Shown: in pieces, positions 37,723 to 63,857 of the stretch
Layout: the number at the start of each line of letters is the position of its first letter
Position numbering within the stretch: position 1 is the first letter of the stretch
Origin: Planctomycetota bacterium
GTDB lineage: Bacteria > Planctomycetota > Phycisphaerae > FEN-1346
Reading direction: 5' to 3'
NCBI GenBank assembly: GCA_030602705.1
Contig: JAUVZF010000011.1
Span: 1-64,000, forward strand
DNA length: 64,000 bases
Program-made: the position numbers and the translations under genes
Notes under the pieces: model-generated
Told to the model about the DNA's origin: nothing
Seen by the model: the letters and a program-made list of their open reading frames with translations, nothing else
Database searches by the model: none

Positions 37723-38736
37723 ATGATACCATTCATCAAGAAACTCGCCCGCGGCGAGGACCTCTCGCTCGATGAGTCGCGCGACGCCATCGCCCGCATC
37801 ATGGAGGGCCGGGCCACGCCCGCACAGATAGCCGCCTTCCTGACGGCGCTCTCCATCAAAGGGCCCACCCCCGACGAGATCGCCGGCGCCGCCATCGTCA
37901 TGCGCGAAAAGGCCACGCCCATCGACGTCGGCGACCTGCCCGTAATCGACACCTGCGGCACCGGCGGCACGGGCAAGAAACCGTTCAACATCTCGACGGC
38001 CTCAGCCATCGTGGCGGCGGGAGCAGGGGCATACGTCGCAAAGCACGGCAACCGCGGGGCAACCTCAAAGTGCGGGTCGAGCGACGTCCTGGAGGCCCTG
38101 GGCGTGAACATTGCGGCCGCCCCGGCCGTCGTGGCGCGGTGCATCCGCGAGGCGCACATCGGCTTTCTCTTCGCACCCGCCCTGCACGGGGCCATGAAGT
38201 ACGCCGTCGCGGTGCGCAAGGAGATCGGCATCCGCACGATCTTCAACGTTCTCGGACCCCTGACGAACCCCGCCGGCGCACGCCGACAGGTCATGGGCGT
38301 CTTTGCGGCCGATCTGGTCGAGCCGATTGCCGACGTCATGGTCCGCCTCGGCGTCGAGCACGCCCTGGTGGTCCACTCGATGGACGGCCTCGATGAGATA
38401 TCGCTCTCGGCACCCACACGGGTCTGCGAGGTCAAAGACGGCGCCGTCGCCTGCTACGATATTTCACCGGAGACCCTCGGCCTGCCGAGTGCGCACCTGG
38501 AGGAGATCCGGGCCGAAACGGTCCGGGAGTACGCCGATGCGCTGCGCTCCGTTCTCGCCGGCGACACCGGGCCGCGACGCGACGCCGTCCTGGCCAACGC
38601 CGCCGCCGCACTCTACGTGGCCGGCGTGGCGCCCAGCATTCAAGACGGCATCGAACCGGCCGCCAATGCCATCGACTCCGGCGCAGCCGCCGACGCCCTC
38701 CAATCGCTCATTCAACTCTCCCACGAAACCGCCTGA
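37723..38736 (+). CDS. trpD: Anthranilate phosphoribosyltransferase
   Basis: DTCGTGGTGKKPFNISTASAIVAAGAGAYVAKHGNRGATSKCGSSDVLEALG; FNVLGPLTNPA. Confidence 0.93.
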   Translation: MIPFIKKLARGEDLSLDESRDAIARIMEGRATPAQIAAFLTALSIKGPTPDEIAGAAIVMREKATPIDVGDLPVIDTCGTGGTGKKPFNISTASAIVAAGAGAYVAKHGNRGATSKCGSSDVLEALGVNIAAAPAVVARCIREAHIGFLFAPALHGAMKYAVAVRKEIGIRTIFNVLGPLTNPAGARRQVMGVFAADLVEPIADVMVRLGVEHALVVHSMDGLDEISLSAPTRVCEVKDGAVACYDISPETLGLPSAHLEEIRAETVREYADALRSVLAGDTGPRRDAVLANAAAALYVAGVAPSIQDGIEPAANAIDSGAAADALQSLIQLSHETA

Positions 38737-38775
38737 CCTTCACCGCCACCACGCAGGCCTGTCCGGCGTAGCCTT
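38681..38775. repeat. trpD 3' end, original copy of duplicated segment
   Basis: About 93% identical by eye to 46055-46149. Confidence 0.85.
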
Positions 38776-46054: not shown

Positions 46055-46149
46055 GCGCAGCCGCAGGCGCCCTCCAATCCCTCATCCAACTCTCCCACGA
46101 AACCGCCTGACCTGCACCACCACCACGCAGGCCTGTCCGGCGTAGCCCT
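46055..46149. repeat. Duplicated trpD 3'-end fragment
   Basis: GCGCAGCCGCAGGCGCCCTCCAATCCCTCATCCAACTCTCCCACGAAACCGCCTGACC...CCACCACGCAGGCCTGTCCGGCGTAGCC. Confidence 0.85.
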
Positions 46150-46264: not shown

Positions 46265-48961
46265 ATGGCCGAGCAGATCAAGGATTTGGACAACCTGAAA
46301 CCCATCGACCACGCGGTGTCCGCCAAGCCGCATACCGCCGTTTACAAGATGCACCGCTATTTCGCGCGGCGGCCGTGGAGCGTTTTTCGGGCGCTCGTCG
46401 AGCATTACTCGAACCCCGGCAGCATAATCCTGGACCCTTTCTGCGGCGGGGGCGTTACCGTTGTCGAGGGGCTGCGACTGCGGCGCAAGGTCATTGCAGT
46501 TGACATCAACCCCTTGGCAACTTTCGTCACGCGCATGGAGGTACTTGAGGCAGAACCGGACGATATACAAGAGGATTTCGAGCGTCTGGGGGCCAGATGC
46601 CGAAACGAGATCGAGGCCTTGTACAAAACACGATGTGAACACTGTCAGCGCCAAGTGACGGCTGAGTGGTTCGAGTGGTCGAATGTCTATGGGTGTCCGT
46701 TCTGCGATAGCGTCAATGTCATCTCCGACTGCGAGAAGCGGCAACCGGGACAATACAAGTGCGTCAAGTGCGAAAAGTGGTTCAAACCCCTGGATGCGAA
46801 ACAGCACTCGCCCATCCTGCTAAACGTATTCGTAAAATGCCCGTCCTGCAAGACCCGCGAGGTCCGGCCTGTTACCGATTGCGACGTTAAGCTTGCTCAG
46901 TCGCTGGCTTCCGTGTTCAAGGCCAAGAGACGGAACCTGGGTGCCCTGATACCCACCGAGCAGATACCAGACGGGAACATGCCACGCGAAAACGCACTAT
47001 CGCGAAGAGGGATACGCTATTTCGCCGACTTTTTCACGAAGCGCAACCTGCTAAGCAACGCGATACTTAGAAAGGCGCTTCGCGCCGCTAACAGCCCCTT
47101 CCTTTGGTTAGCATTTAGCGCGTCTCTGAAGCATACCAACAAACTCGTTCAAAGAGTTAAGGGCTTCGCGGGCGGACAGCCAGAATGGTCACGACACGCT
47201 TTCTGGCCTCCTGAGGTATTTGGCGAGATAAACGTCTGGCGAGCGTTCTCAAAGTCCGTGGCTGCGGTCAAGCGCGGCAAAGCCGAGAGCTATGCCGAGA
47301 TTGGATCTTACGCGGTCGAGGCGTCGAGGTTCGATGATCTCTGTCGAAACGCCACTTTCTACGTCCTGACCCAGTCTGCACACAAACTCCCACTTCCGGA
47401 CAACTCCGTCGATGTTGTGATCACAGATCCGCCCTACGGGGACAACGTTCAGTATATTGAAATGTCGAACTTTTGGCTTGCGTGGCTGCAGGACCACCTC
47501 GGTGTTCCGGTGATCGAGGGCTGCAAGGAAGAGGCGATTGAGACGCGAAGAAGAGGCTTCCCAGGCGCGAAGTCCCACAGGCATTACCGAAACATGCTGC
47601 TCAAGGTGTTTGAAGAATGCTACCGTGTGCTCAAGCCAGGTCGCTGGATGGTGATGACCTTTCACAACAAGAAATTCAGGGTATGGAATGCCCTGCACTT
47701 GGCTGCGCACGACGCTGGCTTTAGGCTGCCCGAACATGACGGGGTGATTTACCAGCCGCCGATTAAGCTGTACGAGTCAATCTCGCACACCAAGTACTCA
47801 GGGGCCATGGTCGGGGACTTCGTGCTATCCTTTGAGAAGGTGGAAGAGCCACCAACGTTGCGCGAGATTGAAAGGGCCGAGATTGGAAGGCACGTTGAAC
47901 GTCTTGCCGCCGAGGCCGTGCTGCACCACCGTGGCGCTTCGCTCTCGACTATCTACATGAAACTGATCCCATGGCTGCTCAACAATAATCTCCTGAACAA
48001 GATCACCGAGAAGGAACTGGCGCCGTATCTCCAGGCCAACTTCGAGGAACGGGAAGGCGTATGGTATCTGAAGGACGAGCCCGACCGCGCCCTGCGGCAA
48101 GACCTGGAACGCTACAGCAAGCAGCACTACAAGGCGTCCTATGACAAACTGGATTTCGTGCCCATCCAGGCCCGTATCGAGTATCTCATTCGGCGTCTTC
48201 TCTACGGCCGTGGATATGCCACACAGGACGACGTGCTGAACCAGATCTACACGAACCTGATCAACTCCAACATGGCGGAGGTCCGCGAGATCCAGCGGGT
48301 CCTTGAGAGCCTTGCGGACCTGGTTCCCTTGGCCGAAGCCGTGGCCGGGCGCGTTGCGAAGAGCAAACGCGGGCGGAAGGTCTGGAAACTCAAGGAGGAC
48401 ATCGAGCGCGAACGTCTTTGGCGCGAAATGGGGGCCGACGTGGAATACCGTCTGGCCAGCAGCGAGGAGTCGGACCACGACCTGGCCATCGCGCGCCTTG
48501 TTGAGATTGCCGGTCTGCGGAAACTCAAGGCGCACATCGGCAGGACGGAGCAGACCAAGTACACCGAGTTCCGCAGGATGAGCAGCCCCCTGCCGAAGCG
48601 GATCCAAGGCTTGCCGAAGGCGGCGCGGCGGATCATTGAGCAGATCGACGTCCTCTGGCACAATGGCGGACGCGGGGTCGTTGCGGCGTTCGAGGTGGAG
48701 CGCACCAGCACCATCACAAGCGGCATCGATCGGTTCCGCAATCTGCTGGCCGTTGTGCGCGAATCCGAGATGCAACTCTACATTGTTGTTCCCAAGGCCC
48801 GCGGCGACGAGGTCCGACGCAAGATAGGCTCGCCCGCCAATCGCAAAGCGGGCTTGCACCGGCGAATCGGCTATGTTTACCTCCAAGACCTACAGATCCG
48901 CAGCCGCGACCCGTCGGTCGTCAAGTTCGAGAAGATCACCCATTATGTGGGGGATAAGTAG
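46265..48961 (+). CDS. Site-specific DNA methyltransferase with internal zinc ribbons and possible nuclease-like C-terminal domain
   Basis: HRYFARRPWSVFRALVEHYSNPGSIILDPFCGGGVTVVEGLRLRRKVIAVDINP (motif I); VITDPPYGDNVQYIEMS (motif IV); CEHC/CPFC/CVKC/CPSC; C-terminal IDVLWHNGGRGVVAAFEVERTSTITSGIDRFRNLL. Confidence 0.85.
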   Translation: MAEQIKDLDNLKPIDHAVSAKPHTAVYKMHRYFARRPWSVFRALVEHYSNPGSIILDPFCGGGVTVVEGLRLRRKVIAVDINPLATFVTRMEVLEAEPDDIQEDFERLGARCRNEIEALYKTRCEHCQRQVTAEWFEWSNVYGCPFCDSVNVISDCEKRQPGQYKCVKCEKWFKPLDAKQHSPILLNVFVKCPSCKTREVRPVTDCDVKLAQSLASVFKAKRRNLGALIPTEQIPDGNMPRENALSRRGIRYFADFFTKRNLLSNAILRKALRAANSPFLWLAFSASLKHTNKLVQRVKGFAGGQPEWSRHAFWPPEVFGEINVWRAFSKSVAAVKRGKAESYAEIGSYAVEASRFDDLCRNATFYVLTQSAHKLPLPDNSVDVVITDPPYGDNVQYIEMSNFWLAWLQDHLGVPVIEGCKEEAIETRRRGFPGAKSHRHYRNMLLKVFEECYRVLKPGRWMVMTFHNKKFRVWNALHLAAHDAGFRLPEHDGVIYQPPIKLYESISHTKYSGAMVGDFVLSFEKVEEPPTLREIERAEIGRHVERLAAEAVLHHRGASLSTIYMKLIPWLLNNNLLNKITEKELAPYLQANFEEREGVWYLKDEPDRALRQDLERYSKQHYKASYDKLDFVPIQARIEYLIRRLLYGRGYATQDDVLNQIYTNLINSNMAEVREIQRVLESLADLVPLAEAVAGRVAKSKRGRKVWKLKEDIERERLWREMGADVEYRLASSEESDHDLAIARLVEIAGLRKLKAHIGRTEQTKYTEFRRMSSPLPKRIQGLPKAARRIIEQIDVLWHNGGRGVVAAFEVERTSTITSGIDRFRNLLAVVRESEMQLYIVVPKARGDEVRRKIGSPANRKAGLHRRIGYVYLQDLQIRSRDPSVVKFEKITHYVGDK

Positions 48962-48963
48962 CA

Positions 48964-51429
48964 ATGGACGTCTCACCTGATCAACTCGACGAGCGCAGGG
49001 AGTTGCTCCAGCGCTGTCTCGCCATGAGCCCTATTCAGGCTCAATCCTACGCTCAGCGGCTGAGCGACGAGGAGTTCCTCGAGGCGATCAACGGCACCGC
49101 GCGCAGCCTGCTCGGCGTGAACATGAAGCGCCCGGTGGATTTCCCGGACTACTACTTCGGCGAGTTCTACACCATCCAGAACGCACAGGTTATCGCAGGG
49201 AACGTGTGGGAGCAGTTGGAACTCGACATTTTGCAGTGCCTGACGATGGAGCAGGAGGCACGGGAGGTCCTAGAGTTCCTGCTGAATCAACCGGGTTTCC
49301 AGGCCGACTTCACCGGCATCAAGGCGCGGTTTCGGCGGTGGCGGAACACGTTGGACAGCCTGTTGGGATTCAAACTCATCCGCAAATTGCCCGCCAGGGC
49401 GAAGGACGTAACAACCTATGCCCTGTATGATGAGATGGCGCCTCTGCTGAGGCGCGTTCTCGCCTCGCCTGCCAGTCAGGACCTGCCCGTCATCAACTCC
49501 GAAGCCGCCCAAGCCGAGTTAGCACATGTCCAGCACATGGAAAAGGAGTTCGAGGCATACCTGCGCGACCTGCTGGACAGTCGGCTCGAAGAGACCATCG
49601 AGTTCGGGCGGGACCACATGAGCATGGGGGCGGTGACTCACTACTTCGAGGAGCTGTTTGGCCCCATGCTCTACTTCGACATCTTACTGGCCCTCGCACA
49701 GCAATATGGGATGACGGCCACCGACATCATCAACCCCGAAGGCAGCCGCGCAGGAAACACAGGTTTTCACTTGGCGCTGTTCGGGGCGCCCGGGACCGGC
49801 AAGACGTTTGCCGTCAAGGACCTTATCATGGGTGAGGAGGACAAGAATGTTTTGGCCCATGGGCTGCCGGGCCTGAACAGGTATTGCGGGGGCATGACGG
49901 CGGCCAACTTCATCCGGATCGGCGAGGCTTATCAGGGAAAGCGGTTTAACTTTGTGGTCACCGAGTTCAACGACTGGTTCCGCTACAAAGGAATGGTCGA
50001 GCCGCTGAAGTTGGCCCTCGAACAGGGCAGAATTCGATACGAGACCAAGATAGAGAGCATCGGCCCATACCAGTTCAGTTGCTACTTCTCCACGAACTAC
50101 AACACGAAGATAAGCAAAGAAGCAGGGTATCGGGTTACGGTAAGCGACCCCAATTTCAACGCCATCGAGGACCGCATGCTGGTCCGTATGCACCGCATGA
50201 CGAAGCAGCGCCTGCGGGAACTGTCGCGGAACCAGCGCGAACTTGCGATGGGCCGCATGCGAATGCGGCTTGCCGATCAGATACGCGACCACCTAACCCT
50301 TGTGTACGCCATCCAGACGGAGCACCCACTCGTCGAAGACCGCTTCCCTAAGAAGGTCGTTGTGCTTCGGGACGCCTTCTTCCAGGAACTGGAGAAAGCG
50401 CAGGAACTCGTCCTTGCGCAGATCAGGACCGAACTGCAATTCAGTGTGCGCGTGCGCCAGAATGCGATCAAACTGGCCAGCGCGCTGACGCTCTTTTCGT
50501 ATTTCGCTCAGGAGGGAGATAGGCTCGAGATAGGTTCCGACGCCACGAGTTTGGCGATCAAGTTCTTCGTGGAAGAGGTGGCGGTCCGACAGAAGGTGGC
50601 TGTTGATGTCGAGAGCATCCTGTACAACCTTGGCCTTAGCGACATGAACCGGGTTACTGCGGCTACTCTGGGTGCGCGACAACAAACAGTTGGGCAGTCG
50701 GACACGGACGCGGCAACCGCGCTTGACATGCTCCGCAGTCACGTTGAGCACGAACTGCGTCTGCTCGAATCCCGTTACGCCCCTGACCTGGGTTGGGACG
50801 AGCAACTGAAGGACCTCGTTGAAACGCTGGGGCCGCAATGGCAGGGTCTCGACTCAGACGTGCAGAGGTTCCTGAGCACGGGCGAGGTCCTCCTGAAGGA
50901 ACTGGAGCGGCTCGCGGATTCCCAGGCAGATTATGCCGCCGTGGTTATCGAATACTGCAAGGCCTTGGAGAGCCAGTTGCTCAGTTCAATCTTCCTGCCG
51001 TTCAAGAAGTTTCTTCGCGATGGCGGCAAGTTGACCGATCCCAAAACCTACGCTTGCGACTTCGGGGCCCTGCCTTCTTCGCCTTCCGACCGGCGAAGTG
51101 TGGAGCGTACGGTCGGGACCCTCAGGGCCTACCTCGTTGATGACAAGCCTCTAACAATGGGGGCCATGTGGCATGCGCTGCTGAAGGCTCAGCAGACCCC
51201 AAGCCATGCCCCCGTGCTCGCCCTCCTTGTCGAACACATCGAGCAGCGCCAAAGAGGAACCTCGCTGCTGGACGGCTCGTTCATCCGAGATTGGGGCGAT
51301 TTTATTGAGACCTTTCGCAACAGCGCGGCGCATAGCAAGGCGATGACGCTTGACCAGGCCAAGCAGAGCAGGGAGATGTTGTTCGGACATCCGGACTCGC
51401 TCTTCCGCACGCTCCTGGCGATCTGTTAG
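48964..51429 (+). CDS. AAA+ ATPase with C-terminal HEPN-like Rx4H motif
   Basis: LFGAPGTGKTFAVKDL Walker A; VVTEFNDWF Walker-B-like position; C-terminal FIETFRNSAAHSKAMTLDQAKQSREMLFG. Confidence 0.75.
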   Translation: MDVSPDQLDERRELLQRCLAMSPIQAQSYAQRLSDEEFLEAINGTARSLLGVNMKRPVDFPDYYFGEFYTIQNAQVIAGNVWEQLELDILQCLTMEQEAREVLEFLLNQPGFQADFTGIKARFRRWRNTLDSLLGFKLIRKLPARAKDVTTYALYDEMAPLLRRVLASPASQDLPVINSEAAQAELAHVQHMEKEFEAYLRDLLDSRLEETIEFGRDHMSMGAVTHYFEELFGPMLYFDILLALAQQYGMTATDIINPEGSRAGNTGFHLALFGAPGTGKTFAVKDLIMGEEDKNVLAHGLPGLNRYCGGMTAANFIRIGEAYQGKRFNFVVTEFNDWFRYKGMVEPLKLALEQGRIRYETKIESIGPYQFSCYFSTNYNTKISKEAGYRVTVSDPNFNAIEDRMLVRMHRMTKQRLRELSRNQRELAMGRMRMRLADQIRDHLTLVYAIQTEHPLVEDRFPKKVVVLRDAFFQELEKAQELVLAQIRTELQFSVRVRQNAIKLASALTLFSYFAQEGDRLEIGSDATSLAIKFFVEEVAVRQKVAVDVESILYNLGLSDMNRVTAATLGARQQTVGQSDTDAATALDMLRSHVEHELRLLESRYAPDLGWDEQLKDLVETLGPQWQGLDSDVQRFLSTGEVLLKELERLADSQADYAAVVIEYCKALESQLLSSIFLPFKKFLRDGGKLTDPKTYACDFGALPSSPSDRRSVERTVGTLRAYLVDDKPLTMGAMWHALLKAQQTPSHAPVLALLVEHIEQRQRGTSLLDGSFIRDWGDFIETFRNSAAHSKAMTLDQAKQSREMLFGHPDSLFRTLLAIC

Positions 51430-51525: not shown

Positions 51526-51940
51526 TTGTTAGAACTCTAACAAAATCCTGGCCCTCCCTCCATTTTGTTAGAACTCTAACAACTTTTCGGGCCTCTGCGG
51601 CCGCTGGTCCGGCCTGCCATTTTGGCATAGGTGACTTACATCAATTTTGCCCCCTCAAAAACCCCTCAAAAACGGAACAAAAACGGACACATAAATCGCA
51701 AAAACGGATCAAAAACCAGCGCGTTTTGCCTTACCTATCTTAACATTTGGGCCCAAATCGCCCCTCACGGGCCAGAATCAACGATTGGAACCAAAAAAAA
51801 ACGCGCATTTGCCCGTTTCGGCAAGGTGAAAATTGACGTAAGTCTTATGCAGGTGGCGGCATATTCCGGCAACGGCGAGACCCGTTCGGCTGCGCTCAGG
51901 GCGGAATCTCGGCTACGATCCGGGTGACAGGCGGCCGGCC
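51526..51940 (+). repeat. Repeat element copy A: two TTGTTAGA-AC-TCTAACAA palindromes plus ~212 bp TIR-bounded unit
   Basis: Inverted match to 63427-63857. Confidence 0.85.
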
Positions 51941-52128
51941 GCAAGGCAGCAATGAGAAGTTGACGTCGCGGCATCCATCCCCGGCCGATTTGTATTGCCG
52001 TGCGTGCGCCCGCGCCGCCCCGGTGCAGCCGCCGCTGCCGCGACTTGCCGCTGGACAAGGCGGGCCGATTCTGGCAGATTACCTCGGACGCAACCGGCCG
52101 CACGCCAACTCGGAAAGGCACACAGACG

Positions 52129-55346: not shown

Positions 55347-58082
55347 GTGAATGACGAGCGGAAAACCAAGGCCCAACTGGCCGAGGAACTGGCGGACCTC
55401 CGCCTCCAGGTTGCCGACCTGAAACAGCGCGAGGCCCGCGCTGCGGAGGCCGAGGAGGCGCCTCACGAGAGCGGGCGGTTCCTCCAGGCGATCCTCGACG
55501 GCATTGAGGACGGCATCACCGTCCGCGACCGCGACTTCACGATCCTGCAGGTCAACCGCTGGATTGAGCAGATGTTCGCCCACGAGATGCCCCTGGTCGG
55601 CAAGAAATGTTACCGGGCGTTCGAGCAGCGGGAGGAGGCCTGCCCCTGGTGTCCGGCCATCAAGGCGATGGAGACCGGCAACGTCTTCAGCCAGGTCGTG
55701 TCCGTCCCCGTGGCCGGTGGCATGACCCGGTGGTTTGAACTGACGGCCTTCCCCTTCAGGGACGCCCAGGGAGACATCGTCGGCGCCATCGAGCACGTCA
55801 AGGACATCACCGACCGCAGAGCCGCCGAGGAGGCGCTGCGGAAAGCCTCCGAGGAGAAATCCCTTATCCTCAGCAGTGTGTCCGAAGAGGTGGTCTACCA
55901 CGACCGTGACATGGGCATCGTCTGGACCAACCGCGCGGCCGGCGAGTCGTCCGGCCTGACGCCGGAGCAACTCGTCGGCCGCATGTGCTACGAGGTCTGG
56001 CACGGACGCAACCAGGTGTGCGACGGGTGTCCGGTACAAAAGGCGATGGATACCGGCTCGCCCGCAGAAACCGAAACCACCACGCCCGACGGCAGGGTGT
56101 GGCACGTCCACGGGTATCCGGTTTTTGGGGACGGCGGGAAGGTCATCGGCACCGTCGAGGTCGTCCGCGGCATCACCGCACACAAGGCCGCCGAGGAGGC
56201 GCTGCGAAAAGCCGCCGAGGAGAAATCCCTTATCCTCAGCAGTGTGTCCGAACAGGTGATCTATCACGACCGTGACATGGTCATCGTCTGGGCCAACCGC
56301 GCGGCCGGCGAGGCGGCCGGCCTGACGCCGGAGCAACTCGTCGGCCGCATGTGCTACGAGGTCTGGCACGGACGCAACCAGGTGTGCGACGGGTGTCCGG
56401 CACAAAAGGCGATGGATACCGGCGCGCCCGCGGAAACCGAAATCACCACGCCCGACGGCAGGGCGTGGCACGTCCACGGGTATCCGGTTTTTGGGAACGG
56501 CGGGAAGGTCATCGGTGCTGTCGAAGTCGTCCGCGACATCAGCGAACGCAAGGCTGCCGAAGAGGCGCTCCGCCGGTCCGAAGAGGACTACCGCCTCCTG
56601 TTCGAGCAGAGCGTGGACGGCATCGTGGTCGTGGCCGACACCAGGATCGTCCGGGCCAACCAGGCGTGCGCCGACATTCACGGATGGTCCGTCGAGGAAC
56701 TGATCGGGATGACCAGTACCGACCTGCTCCATCCGGACGAACGGGCCGCGGCCGCCGAACGCATCCGCGGAGTCATCGACCGCACGTTGGATCGGTCGAA
56801 CGCCCGACAGTACCACGCGCTTCGGGCCGACGGCTCCATCGCCCTGGTCGAGTACCGGTCCCGCCGCATCCTCTGGAAGGGCCGGCCGGCGGTCCAGGCC
56901 ATCGTCCGCGACATCACCGAGCAAGTCCGCCTGGAGGAGGAACTCCGCCAGGCGCTCAAGATGGAGGCCGTCGGCCAACTGGCGGGCGGCATAGCGCACG
57001 ATTTCAACAACCTGATGACCGGCATCCTCTGTCACGCCAACCTGTTGAAGTCGGAGAGCCCCTCGCCGGAGGACATCCGGGAGGCGGCCGACCTGATCGA
57101 GGGCGCGGCCCGGCGTGCGGCGGAACTGACCAGTCAACTCCTCGGGTTCGCACGCCGCGGCAAACAGCGGGACGTCCCGGTGGACCTGAACGCCACCACC
57201 CGGACGAGCGTGCGGCTGCTCGGCCGGTCCCTGGACCCGCGCATTCGCGTCAGGATGCCGTTCCGTGATGAGCACGCCTTTGTCCGGGGGGACCCGGTTC
57301 AGATGGAACAGGTTGTTCTGAACCTGGCCATGAACGCACGCGACGCCATGCCCGAGGGTGGCGAGATGACCCTCACCATCCACACCCTCGACGTGGGCGC
57401 CGAGGACTGCAAGAGCCGCCCCGGCGCCGAGCCCGGACGCTACGTCGCGCTTAGCGTCGCGGACACCGGCTGCGGCATACCGGAAGCGATGCGCAGCCGC
57501 GTCTTCGAGCCCTTCTTCACCACGAAGCCTCACGGCAAAGGGACGGGCATGGGGCTGGCCATGGTCTATGGCATCGTCAAGGACCACGGCGGCTGGGTTG
57601 AGGTGGACAGCGAGCCGGGGCGTGGTACGACGTTTCGGGTCTTTCTGCCGGCGGCGGAGGCGCCGGCCGACGCCGGGGCGACACCGGCCGACGCCGACCT
57701 GCGTGCCCCGCCCGACGCCGGCCGCATCCTCGTGGTCGATGACGAGGAACTGGTCCGAAACGTCGTGGCCCGTATGTTGTCGGCTCTGGGCTATGAGGTT
57801 GCCACCGCCGCAAACGCCCGCGAGGCCGTCGAGTACTACAAGCGGTTCGGCCGCGACGTGAGCGTGGTCATTATCGATATGGCCATGCCCGAGATGGACG
57901 GCCGCCGGTGTTTCGCGGCCCTCAGAGGGTTGGATCCGGATGTCAAGGCGCTCCTGGCCACCGGCTGTGGAAACGAAGACCGGGTGCAGGATGCGCTGGA
58001 CGAAGGAATGGCCGGCCTCGTCCGGAAGCCTTTCCAGACGAAGCAGTTGGCGAAGGCCGTCAAACAGGCCCTGACGCAGTAG
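55347..58082 (+). CDS. Multi-PAS hybrid histidine kinase with C-terminal receiver domain
   Basis: Repeated PAS blocks; [16 protein letters not shown]-box; [40 protein letters not shown] start. Confidence 0.9.
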
Positions 58083-63420: not shown

Positions 63421-63426
63421 TGCGGC

Positions 63427-63857
63427 CGGCCGTCGGTCACACTGATCGCAGCCGAGATTCCGCCCTGAGCGCAGCCGAACGGGTCTCGCCGCTGCCGGGA
63501 TATGCCGCCTGCTCTATAACACTTACGTCAATTTTCACCTTGCCGAAACGGGCAAATGCGCGCTTTTTTTGCCTCGGAGCCCCGTTTCTAGGCCGTGAGG
63601 GGCGATTTGGGCCAAAATGTTAAGATAGGTAAGGCAAAACGCGCTGGTTTTTGTTCCGTTTTTGCGATTTTTGTGTCCGTTTTTGTCCGTTTTTGTTCCG
63701 TTTTGTTCCGTTTTTGAGGGGTTTTTGAGGGGGCAAAATTGATGTAAGTCACCTATGCCAAAATGGCAGGCCGGACGGGAGGGCCGCAGGGACCGAAAAG
63801 TTGTTAGAGTTCTAACAAAACTGAGGGAGGGCGAGGATTTTGTTAGAGTTCTAACAA
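63427..63857 (-). repeat. Repeat element copy B (inverted relative to copy A)
   Basis: Palindromes TTGTTAGAGTTCTAACAA at 63801-63818 and 63840-63857; TIR-bounded unit 63520-63750. Confidence 0.85.

Follow-up and report, generated by a model that had tools for sequence, protein, structure and literature searches.

The window analysed here, a stretch of 64,000 nucleotides from a planctomycete-type MAG of 3.88 Mb, carries two large adjacent genes, ORF1 and ORF2, whose reading frames are both open and intact (Table 1). An earlier sequence-only reading had delimited the same two frames (stop at 48961, start at 48964) and considered them probably translationally coupled. This predicted coupling is supported by comparison of the junction, which is +2 nt in the window, -4 nt (an ATGA overlap) in the related locus L004 and 0 nt in the related locus L005, with purine-rich Shine-Dalgarno-like stretches preceding the start. 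The motifs named by that reading (DPFCGGG, DPPYG and cysteine-rich ribbons in ORF1, GAPGTGKT and RNSAAH in ORF2) are all present. A GH32 gene lies upstream of the pair, and a repeat and a GlnRS gene lie downstream; an esterase and a xylose isomerase-like protein are encoded nearby. The ORFs listed for the flanks of the pair in the window include neither an integrase nor a transposase, and no further defence genes were recognised there.

Table 1. Features of the ORF1-ORF2 locus, in window coordinates; functional assignments are predictions.
Feature	Position	Strand	Description
ORF1	46265..48961	+	898 aa; DNA methyltransferase fused to C-terminal restriction-endonuclease-like domain
Motif I DPFCGGG	46433..46453	+	SAM site; ORF1 residues 57-63
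Insert between motifs I and IV	46550..47329	+	Probable target-recognition region with zinc ribbon; ORF1 residues ~96-355
Motif IV DPPYG	47426..47440	+	ORF1 residues 388-392
Mosaic middle region	47870..48574	+	ORF1 residues 536-770; L005 groups with window against sister L004
C-terminal nuclease-like domain	48470..48958	+	ORF1 residues ~736-898; PADLOC REase_II PDLC03534 family
Candidate catalytic stretch D795...E810-V-E812	48647..48700	+	Within nuclease-like domain of ORF1
ORF2	48964..51429	+	821 aa; P-loop (AAA+-like) ATPase with N-terminal helical region and C-terminal HEPN-like domain
Walker A GAPGTGKT	49783..49806	+	ORF2 residues 274-281; invariant in four homologues
Putative Walker B TEFND	49960..49974	+	ORF2 residues 333-337; invariant in four homologues; by position only
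Putative sensor 1 FSTNYN	50086..50103	+	ORF2 residues 375-380; McrB NxxD absent (N-Y-N-T)
All-helical HEPN-like domain	50827..51426	+	ORF2 residues ~622-821
RNSAAH (Rx4H) motif	51316..51333	+	ORF2 residues 785-790; RNGAAH in L004, RNPAAH in L003

Among 393 genomes of the phylum, two including the host possess ORF2, a third match (locus L003) being to the C-terminal domain alone; among 398 genomes of the class, the host alone possesses it, with one weak partial match besides. Outside the Planctomycetota, ORF2 was looked for in phage and plasmid collections and in one pattern-based scan of genome contigs: it is absent from the annotated phage and plasmid records searched, and the three loci found by the scan (L004, L005 and L006) are all from Planctomycetota. 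L006 is the copy of genome G146 and is truncated upstream, where its contig ends. The co-occurrence on which the candidate two-gene system had been staked holds in both relatives where both genes are readable: in L004 and L005 a methyltransferase-nuclease gene directly precedes ORF2, with the fusion kept and the order as in the window. ORF1 of the window is 58% and 62% identical to its counterparts in L004 and L005, respectively, and ORF2 is 73% and 79% identical. Between L004 and L005, dN/dS is about 0.09 for ORF2 and about 0.13 for ORF1; both genes are under purifying selection.

The contigs of the two relatives, G750 (L004 and L118) and G751 (L005 and L117), break inside ORF1, near or within the target-recognition insert, where strain-level variation possibly broke the assembly. 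L117 is likely to be the L005 locus and L118 the L004 locus, an assignment that is unproven because of these breaks. By neighbours that were named by eye rather than by profile in L004, L117 and L118, the upstream side differs between genomes (GH32 in the window, pilus-assembly-like genes in L117, a small membrane-type protein and ABC transporter genes in L118), as does the downstream side in the two genomes where it is readable (the repeat and GlnRS in the window, a HEAT-repeat-like protein in L004). No conserved third gene was seen upstream in three genomes or downstream in two. Since the neighbours differ, the conserved unit seems to be just ORF1 and ORF2.

The methyltransferase with SAM-binding motif I and motif IV by which a restriction-modification system is recognised is found in ORF1 (Pfam N6_N4_Mtase, 3.6e-19). 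In PADLOC, ORF1 matches PglXI of BREX type 3 (1.3e-57) and type II methyltransferases (3e-41), and in NCBIfam it matches the anti-phage DUF1156 family (1.8e-20) over part of the protein and under the model's own cut-off. Motif I is followed by a cysteine-rich insert and then by DPPYG. This alpha order, in which the target-recognition insert is internal, is also the layout of BrxXI/PglXI (PMC12839542). Pairwise identities of 25-28% link ORF1 to methyltransferases of three settings: BREX type 3 loci, a PglZ/BrxA locus on an archaeal plasmid, and operons of two methyltransferases with an AAA_5 ATPase. Homology identifies ORF1 as a predicted PglXI/type II-like DNA methyltransferase, whose mark is most likely N6-methyladenine, given the DPPY of motif IV. 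The insert contains CxxC pairs at Cys 124/127, 144/147, 166/169 and 192/195, the first and last of which are kept in the N-terminal piece at L117; the two middle pairs are not. Identity between ORF1 and that piece is 87% over residues 1-95 versus 33% over residues 96-230.

Divergence is also uneven along the gene between L004 and L005. At the DNA level, the two are 84-93% identical throughout ORF2, but in ORF1 identity falls to 52-66% at codons ~541-780 and to 58% at codons ~301-360. Within residues 536-770, L005 is grouped with the window by 45 informative sites and with L004 by 12, against 19 and 119, respectively, in the rest of ORF1 (Fisher p=3e-18, for a block whose boundaries were picked after inspection of the profile). 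Comparison of the alleles supports two putative specificity regions, the motif I-IV insert and residues ~536-770, and the mosaicism is as would be expected from specificity switching of restriction-modification enzymes.

The sequence-only reading had recognised the methyltransferase of ORF1 correctly and overlooked the restriction-endonuclease-like domain at its C-terminus. Residues ~736-898 match plasmid proteins of ~420 aa, many of them annotated as type II restriction endonucleases, as well as proteins of related genomes in which the domain is part of EVE-like or other fusions. REase_II of PADLOC (PDLC03534) matches ORF1 weakly in the window (1.3e-3), somewhat better in L005 (2.5e-4) and L004 (1.9e-4), and at about 2e-18 in the stand-alone relatives P0008 and L121; searches of Pfam, NCBIfam and PDB profiles gave no match for this domain. 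In an alignment of ten members, invariant positions comprise H, ID, FE(V/L)E, I-x-SG and R, and the candidate catalytic residues D795, E810 and E812 are unchanged across these diverse homologues. The motif reads ExE, the lysine of the usual ExK being replaced by glutamate, a variant that also occurs in BamHI. We infer that the domain is a PD-(D/E)XK-type nuclease of the ExE variant, an assignment drawn from motif and PADLOC similarity because the Pfam and PDB profile searches were empty. With such a domain fused to the methyltransferase, neither HEPN nor any other separate effector would be necessary for restriction.

The stand-alone relatives of ~420 aa often adjoin copper-resistance genes. 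Seven plasmid loci lie in copper regions (L099, L100, L101, L103, L104, L123 and L125) and three others are less clear (L122, L102 and L124); the genes around the stand-alone relatives encode a copper P-type ATPase, cupredoxin, multicopper oxidase, DUF305 protein, CopY and copper-binding protein, and the relatives in copper regions span Bacillota, Bacteroidota, Cyanobacteriota, Actinomycetota and Deinococcota. These neighbours may point to another role for the nuclease-like domain. The stand-alone relatives may have been misannotated as type II restriction endonucleases, or a nuclease may be connected with copper stress in a way not yet explained.

ORF2 is by homology a conserved predicted P-loop ATPase encoded directly after the methyltransferase. 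The stretches EDRMLVRM, TEFND and FSTNYN (its first residue F in all four) are invariant in four homologues. Beyond Walker A, however, no family could be assigned: there was no significant similarity to MoxR, bpMoxR, GvpN, ClpB or NtrC-type proteins, or to the AAA_5 protein of the two-methyltransferase operon. When the AAA core was aligned by hhalign with the MoxR, bpMoxR, GvpN, ClpB and NtrC sets, Walker A and little more was recovered (best GvpN, probability 67, 54 columns). A MoxR/RavA-like reading of the ORF2 motifs was dropped, and no such resemblance is claimed, because in shuffle tests of the AAA core against the AAA sets no z exceeded 1.8 outside Walker A. In PADLOC, ORF2 gave no match except mad8 (0.025), on Walker A. 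The AAA family of ORF2 is undescribed in the profile libraries searched (PADLOC, NCBIfam and Pfam).

The C-terminus of ORF2 appears HEPN-like at the level of motif only. The RNSAAH motif pointed out by the sequence-only reading fits the Rx4-6H pattern of HEPN domains, lies within a predicted helical region and is kept among homologues in its variant forms; the domain has no Pfam match. A distant copy also forms the C-terminal end of a TPR protein in L003 (E 4.2e-7). This part is the least conserved stretch of ORF2 (57%, versus 86% for the AAA core), and in L006 ORF2 stops after about 565 codons, before reaching it, so that either the HEPN-like part is dispensable or the L006 copy has decayed. 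AlphaFold models, which the sequence-only reading had suggested, were made for both proteins from alignments of 3-4 homologues and were poor (mean pLDDT 39 and 38). That of ORF2 is helical at residues 661-780 (pLDDT about 56-85) and falls below 50 around RNSAAH, and Foldseek with this poor model returned nothing meaningful and no fold match.

The sequence-only reading had also placed the pair in a mobile island between a duplicated trpD fragment and a repeat element. Both flanks are real: the 3' end of trpD (38681-38773) is duplicated just upstream of the pair at 46055-46147 (93 bp, 93.5% identical), and a dispersed repeat of ~420 bp occurs at 51526-51943 and, inverted and 87% identical, at 63421-63857. 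The repeat begins with twin palindromes TTGTTAGA-NN-TCTAACAA, 39-40 nt apart, of which the host genome contains 70 exact sites (about 35 elements); none was found in 13 other genomes searched, including the other carriers of ORF1 and ORF2. The repeat may represent a MITE-like element or have a regulatory function. Because some 35 copies are dispersed in the genome, it is no specific marker of this locus, and the two sequences were rejected as island borders. The G+C content of 42.4-52.0 kb is 57.5%, versus 65.4% elsewhere in the window, and GC3 is also lower, which would fit a longer stretch having come from a foreign source; the zone begins at about 42.4 kb and takes in unrelated metabolic genes. 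The trpD copy, the repeat and the low G+C content favour an island, but the metabolic genes within the zone, the dispersal of the repeat and the lack of an integrase or transposase among the listed neighbours leave the claim weak. Elsewhere in the window, a 427-bp direct duplication (55777-56203 and 56143-56569, 91% identical) within a histidine kinase gene has produced repeated PAS-like segments.

Judged by its sequence, the pair would work most like a restriction-modification system, and the favoured reading, to which we assign a probability of about 0.6, is that it is a compact restriction-modification-like defence unit composed of a methyltransferase-nuclease and an AAA+ partner. In the proposed mechanism, the alpha-order zinc-ribbon methyltransferase of ORF1 would mark a specific site in host DNA, likely with N6-methyladenine, a step strongly supported by homology. 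The motif I-IV insert and the module at ~536-770, which vary or recombine between relatives according to the comparison of alleles, would determine its specificity. The D...ExE nuclease-like C-terminus of ORF1, as its REase_II domain suggests, would cut DNA that lacks the mark. Much like McrB in relation to McrC, co-translated ORF2 may form an ATP-dependent ring or switch and so license or spread cleavage, and its HEPN-like C-terminus might, more speculatively, be a regulatory, dimerising or back-up RNase module.

BrxXI/PglXI of BREX type 3 resembles ORF1 in motif order and in the zinc-finger target-recognition insert between motifs I and IV, and ORF1 is 25% identical over 665 columns to a Roseomonas protein (pairwise 1e-43). 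BREX type 3 differs in possessing BrxF, a BrxC-like protein (annotated DUF6079), a helicase and PglZ, none of which is encoded beside the window pair, and PglXI ends in HTH-like domains whereas ORF1 ends in a nuclease-like domain. Neither PglZ nor BrxC is found among the window neighbours or downstream in L004, and BREX was ruled out for the pair without them alongside. The BREX-related type 1 (DUF499/Hma) system likewise combines an adenine methyltransferase with an ATPase, sometimes fused to HEPN, and includes a PD-(D/E)XK nuclease. Its nuclease, however, is on an SF2 helicase and its HEPN is N-terminal on the BrxC-like ATPase, whereas the window pair has no helicase, its nuclease-like domain is on the methyltransferase and its HEPN-like part is C-terminal. 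With no helicase adjacent and no PADLOC match of ORF2 to HmaC/DUF499, its ATPase being dissimilar, this system too was ruled out.

A looser BREX-like or DUF499-like exclusion mechanism is unlikely. The methyltransferase would mark self, ORF2, as principal sensor and effector, would block phage replication or kill the cell through its HEPN-like RNase, and the nuclease-like domain would be an inactive DNA-binding module. The invariance of D795, E810 and E812 in ten diverse homologues argues against inactivity even though ExE stands in place of ExK, and the HEPN-like part, poorly conserved and missing from L006, makes a doubtful effector even though HEPN domains are frequent on the DUF499 ATPases of BREX-related systems (PMC12839542). 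ORF1 does belong with PglXI and DUF1156 enzymes, but no PglZ, BrxC, DUF499 or helicase gene lies beside the pair in the window or in the readable part of L004.

LlaJI, which restricts unmethylated DNA and for this requires both a McrB-like and a PD-(D/E)XK subunit (PMC1459862), combines a methyltransferase with an AAA+ NTPase and a nuclease as the window pair may do, and related methyltransferases occur in L027 and L032. These systems differ in having a separate McrC-like DUF2357 nuclease, two methyltransferases and the McrB signature NxxD (PMC11090510), none of which was seen in the window pair; the putative sensor 1 of ORF2 reads NYNT, and neither in the window nor in L004 is a DUF2357 or McrC-like gene adjacent to the pair. 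McrBC/LlaJI as such was ruled out on the missing NxxD and DUF2357. A diverged form, with ORF2 as the McrB-like NTPase and McrC replaced by the nuclease domain fused to the methyltransferase, is less likely than the exclusion mechanism. LlaJI is its precedent as a McrBC-like enzyme in a restriction-modification system that cuts unmethylated DNA (PMC1459862), and some operons combine related methyltransferases with AAA_5 ATPases, in L029 also with DUF2357-PDDEXK_7 proteins; yet ORF2 shares only Walker A with the AAA_5 protein of the two-methyltransferase operon and lacks NxxD, and the pair has no DUF2357 or McrC gene beside it.

Single-chain restriction-modification enzymes of types IIG and IIC resemble ORF1 in combining methyltransferase and nuclease in one polypeptide. 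Such enzymes usually carry the nuclease N-terminally and need no separate ATPase, whereas the nuclease-like domain of ORF1 is C-terminal and an ATPase gene comes next in all three readable loci. DISARM and MADS were rejected, their full gene sets being absent and the matches weak, at the level of the methyltransferase or of Walker A only. Least probable is a non-defence role, in which a methyltransferase acting on DNA or RNA and a chaperone-type ATPase would make up an epigenetic or metabolic module that became fixed in a few planctomycetes. Such a role would accord with the lack of recognised defence genes around the window pair and with the recurrence of stand-alone relatives of the ORF1 C-terminal domain in metal-resistance regions, but not with the very patchy distribution of ORF2 (2 of 393 genomes of the phylum), the unrelated neighbours between genomes, the mosaic specificity region of ORF1, or the BREX and restriction-modification loci in which its closest methyltransferase relatives are found.

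The parallels drawn by the sequence-only reading with BREX, DISARM and McrBC went too far: they hold for the methyltransferase or as a loose analogy, whereas ORF2 could be aligned with McrB-like or MoxR proteins in Walker A only. Its view that the pair matches no recognised system stands: no named system in PADLOC, NCBIfam or Pfam matches the pair, and none with its architecture was found in the literature searched, which excluded subscription journals and preprints, so that an earlier description is possible.

Within the favoured reading of a restriction-modification-like unit, it may tentatively be suggested, at less than even odds, that the pair represents a class of two-gene ATP-dependent restriction-modification systems in which one polypeptide both marks and cuts, specificity modules are swapped between alleles, and a separate AAA+-HEPN protein, of a clade not previously tied to restriction, licenses cleavage. 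If this is right, a machine that takes several genes in BREX-like or LlaJI-like systems would have been reduced to two, with marker and cutter in one chain, and a single ATPase would control both, offering a tractable test of how AAA+ proteins gate restriction. The natural mosaic alleles of ORF1 would provide ready-made specificity swaps.
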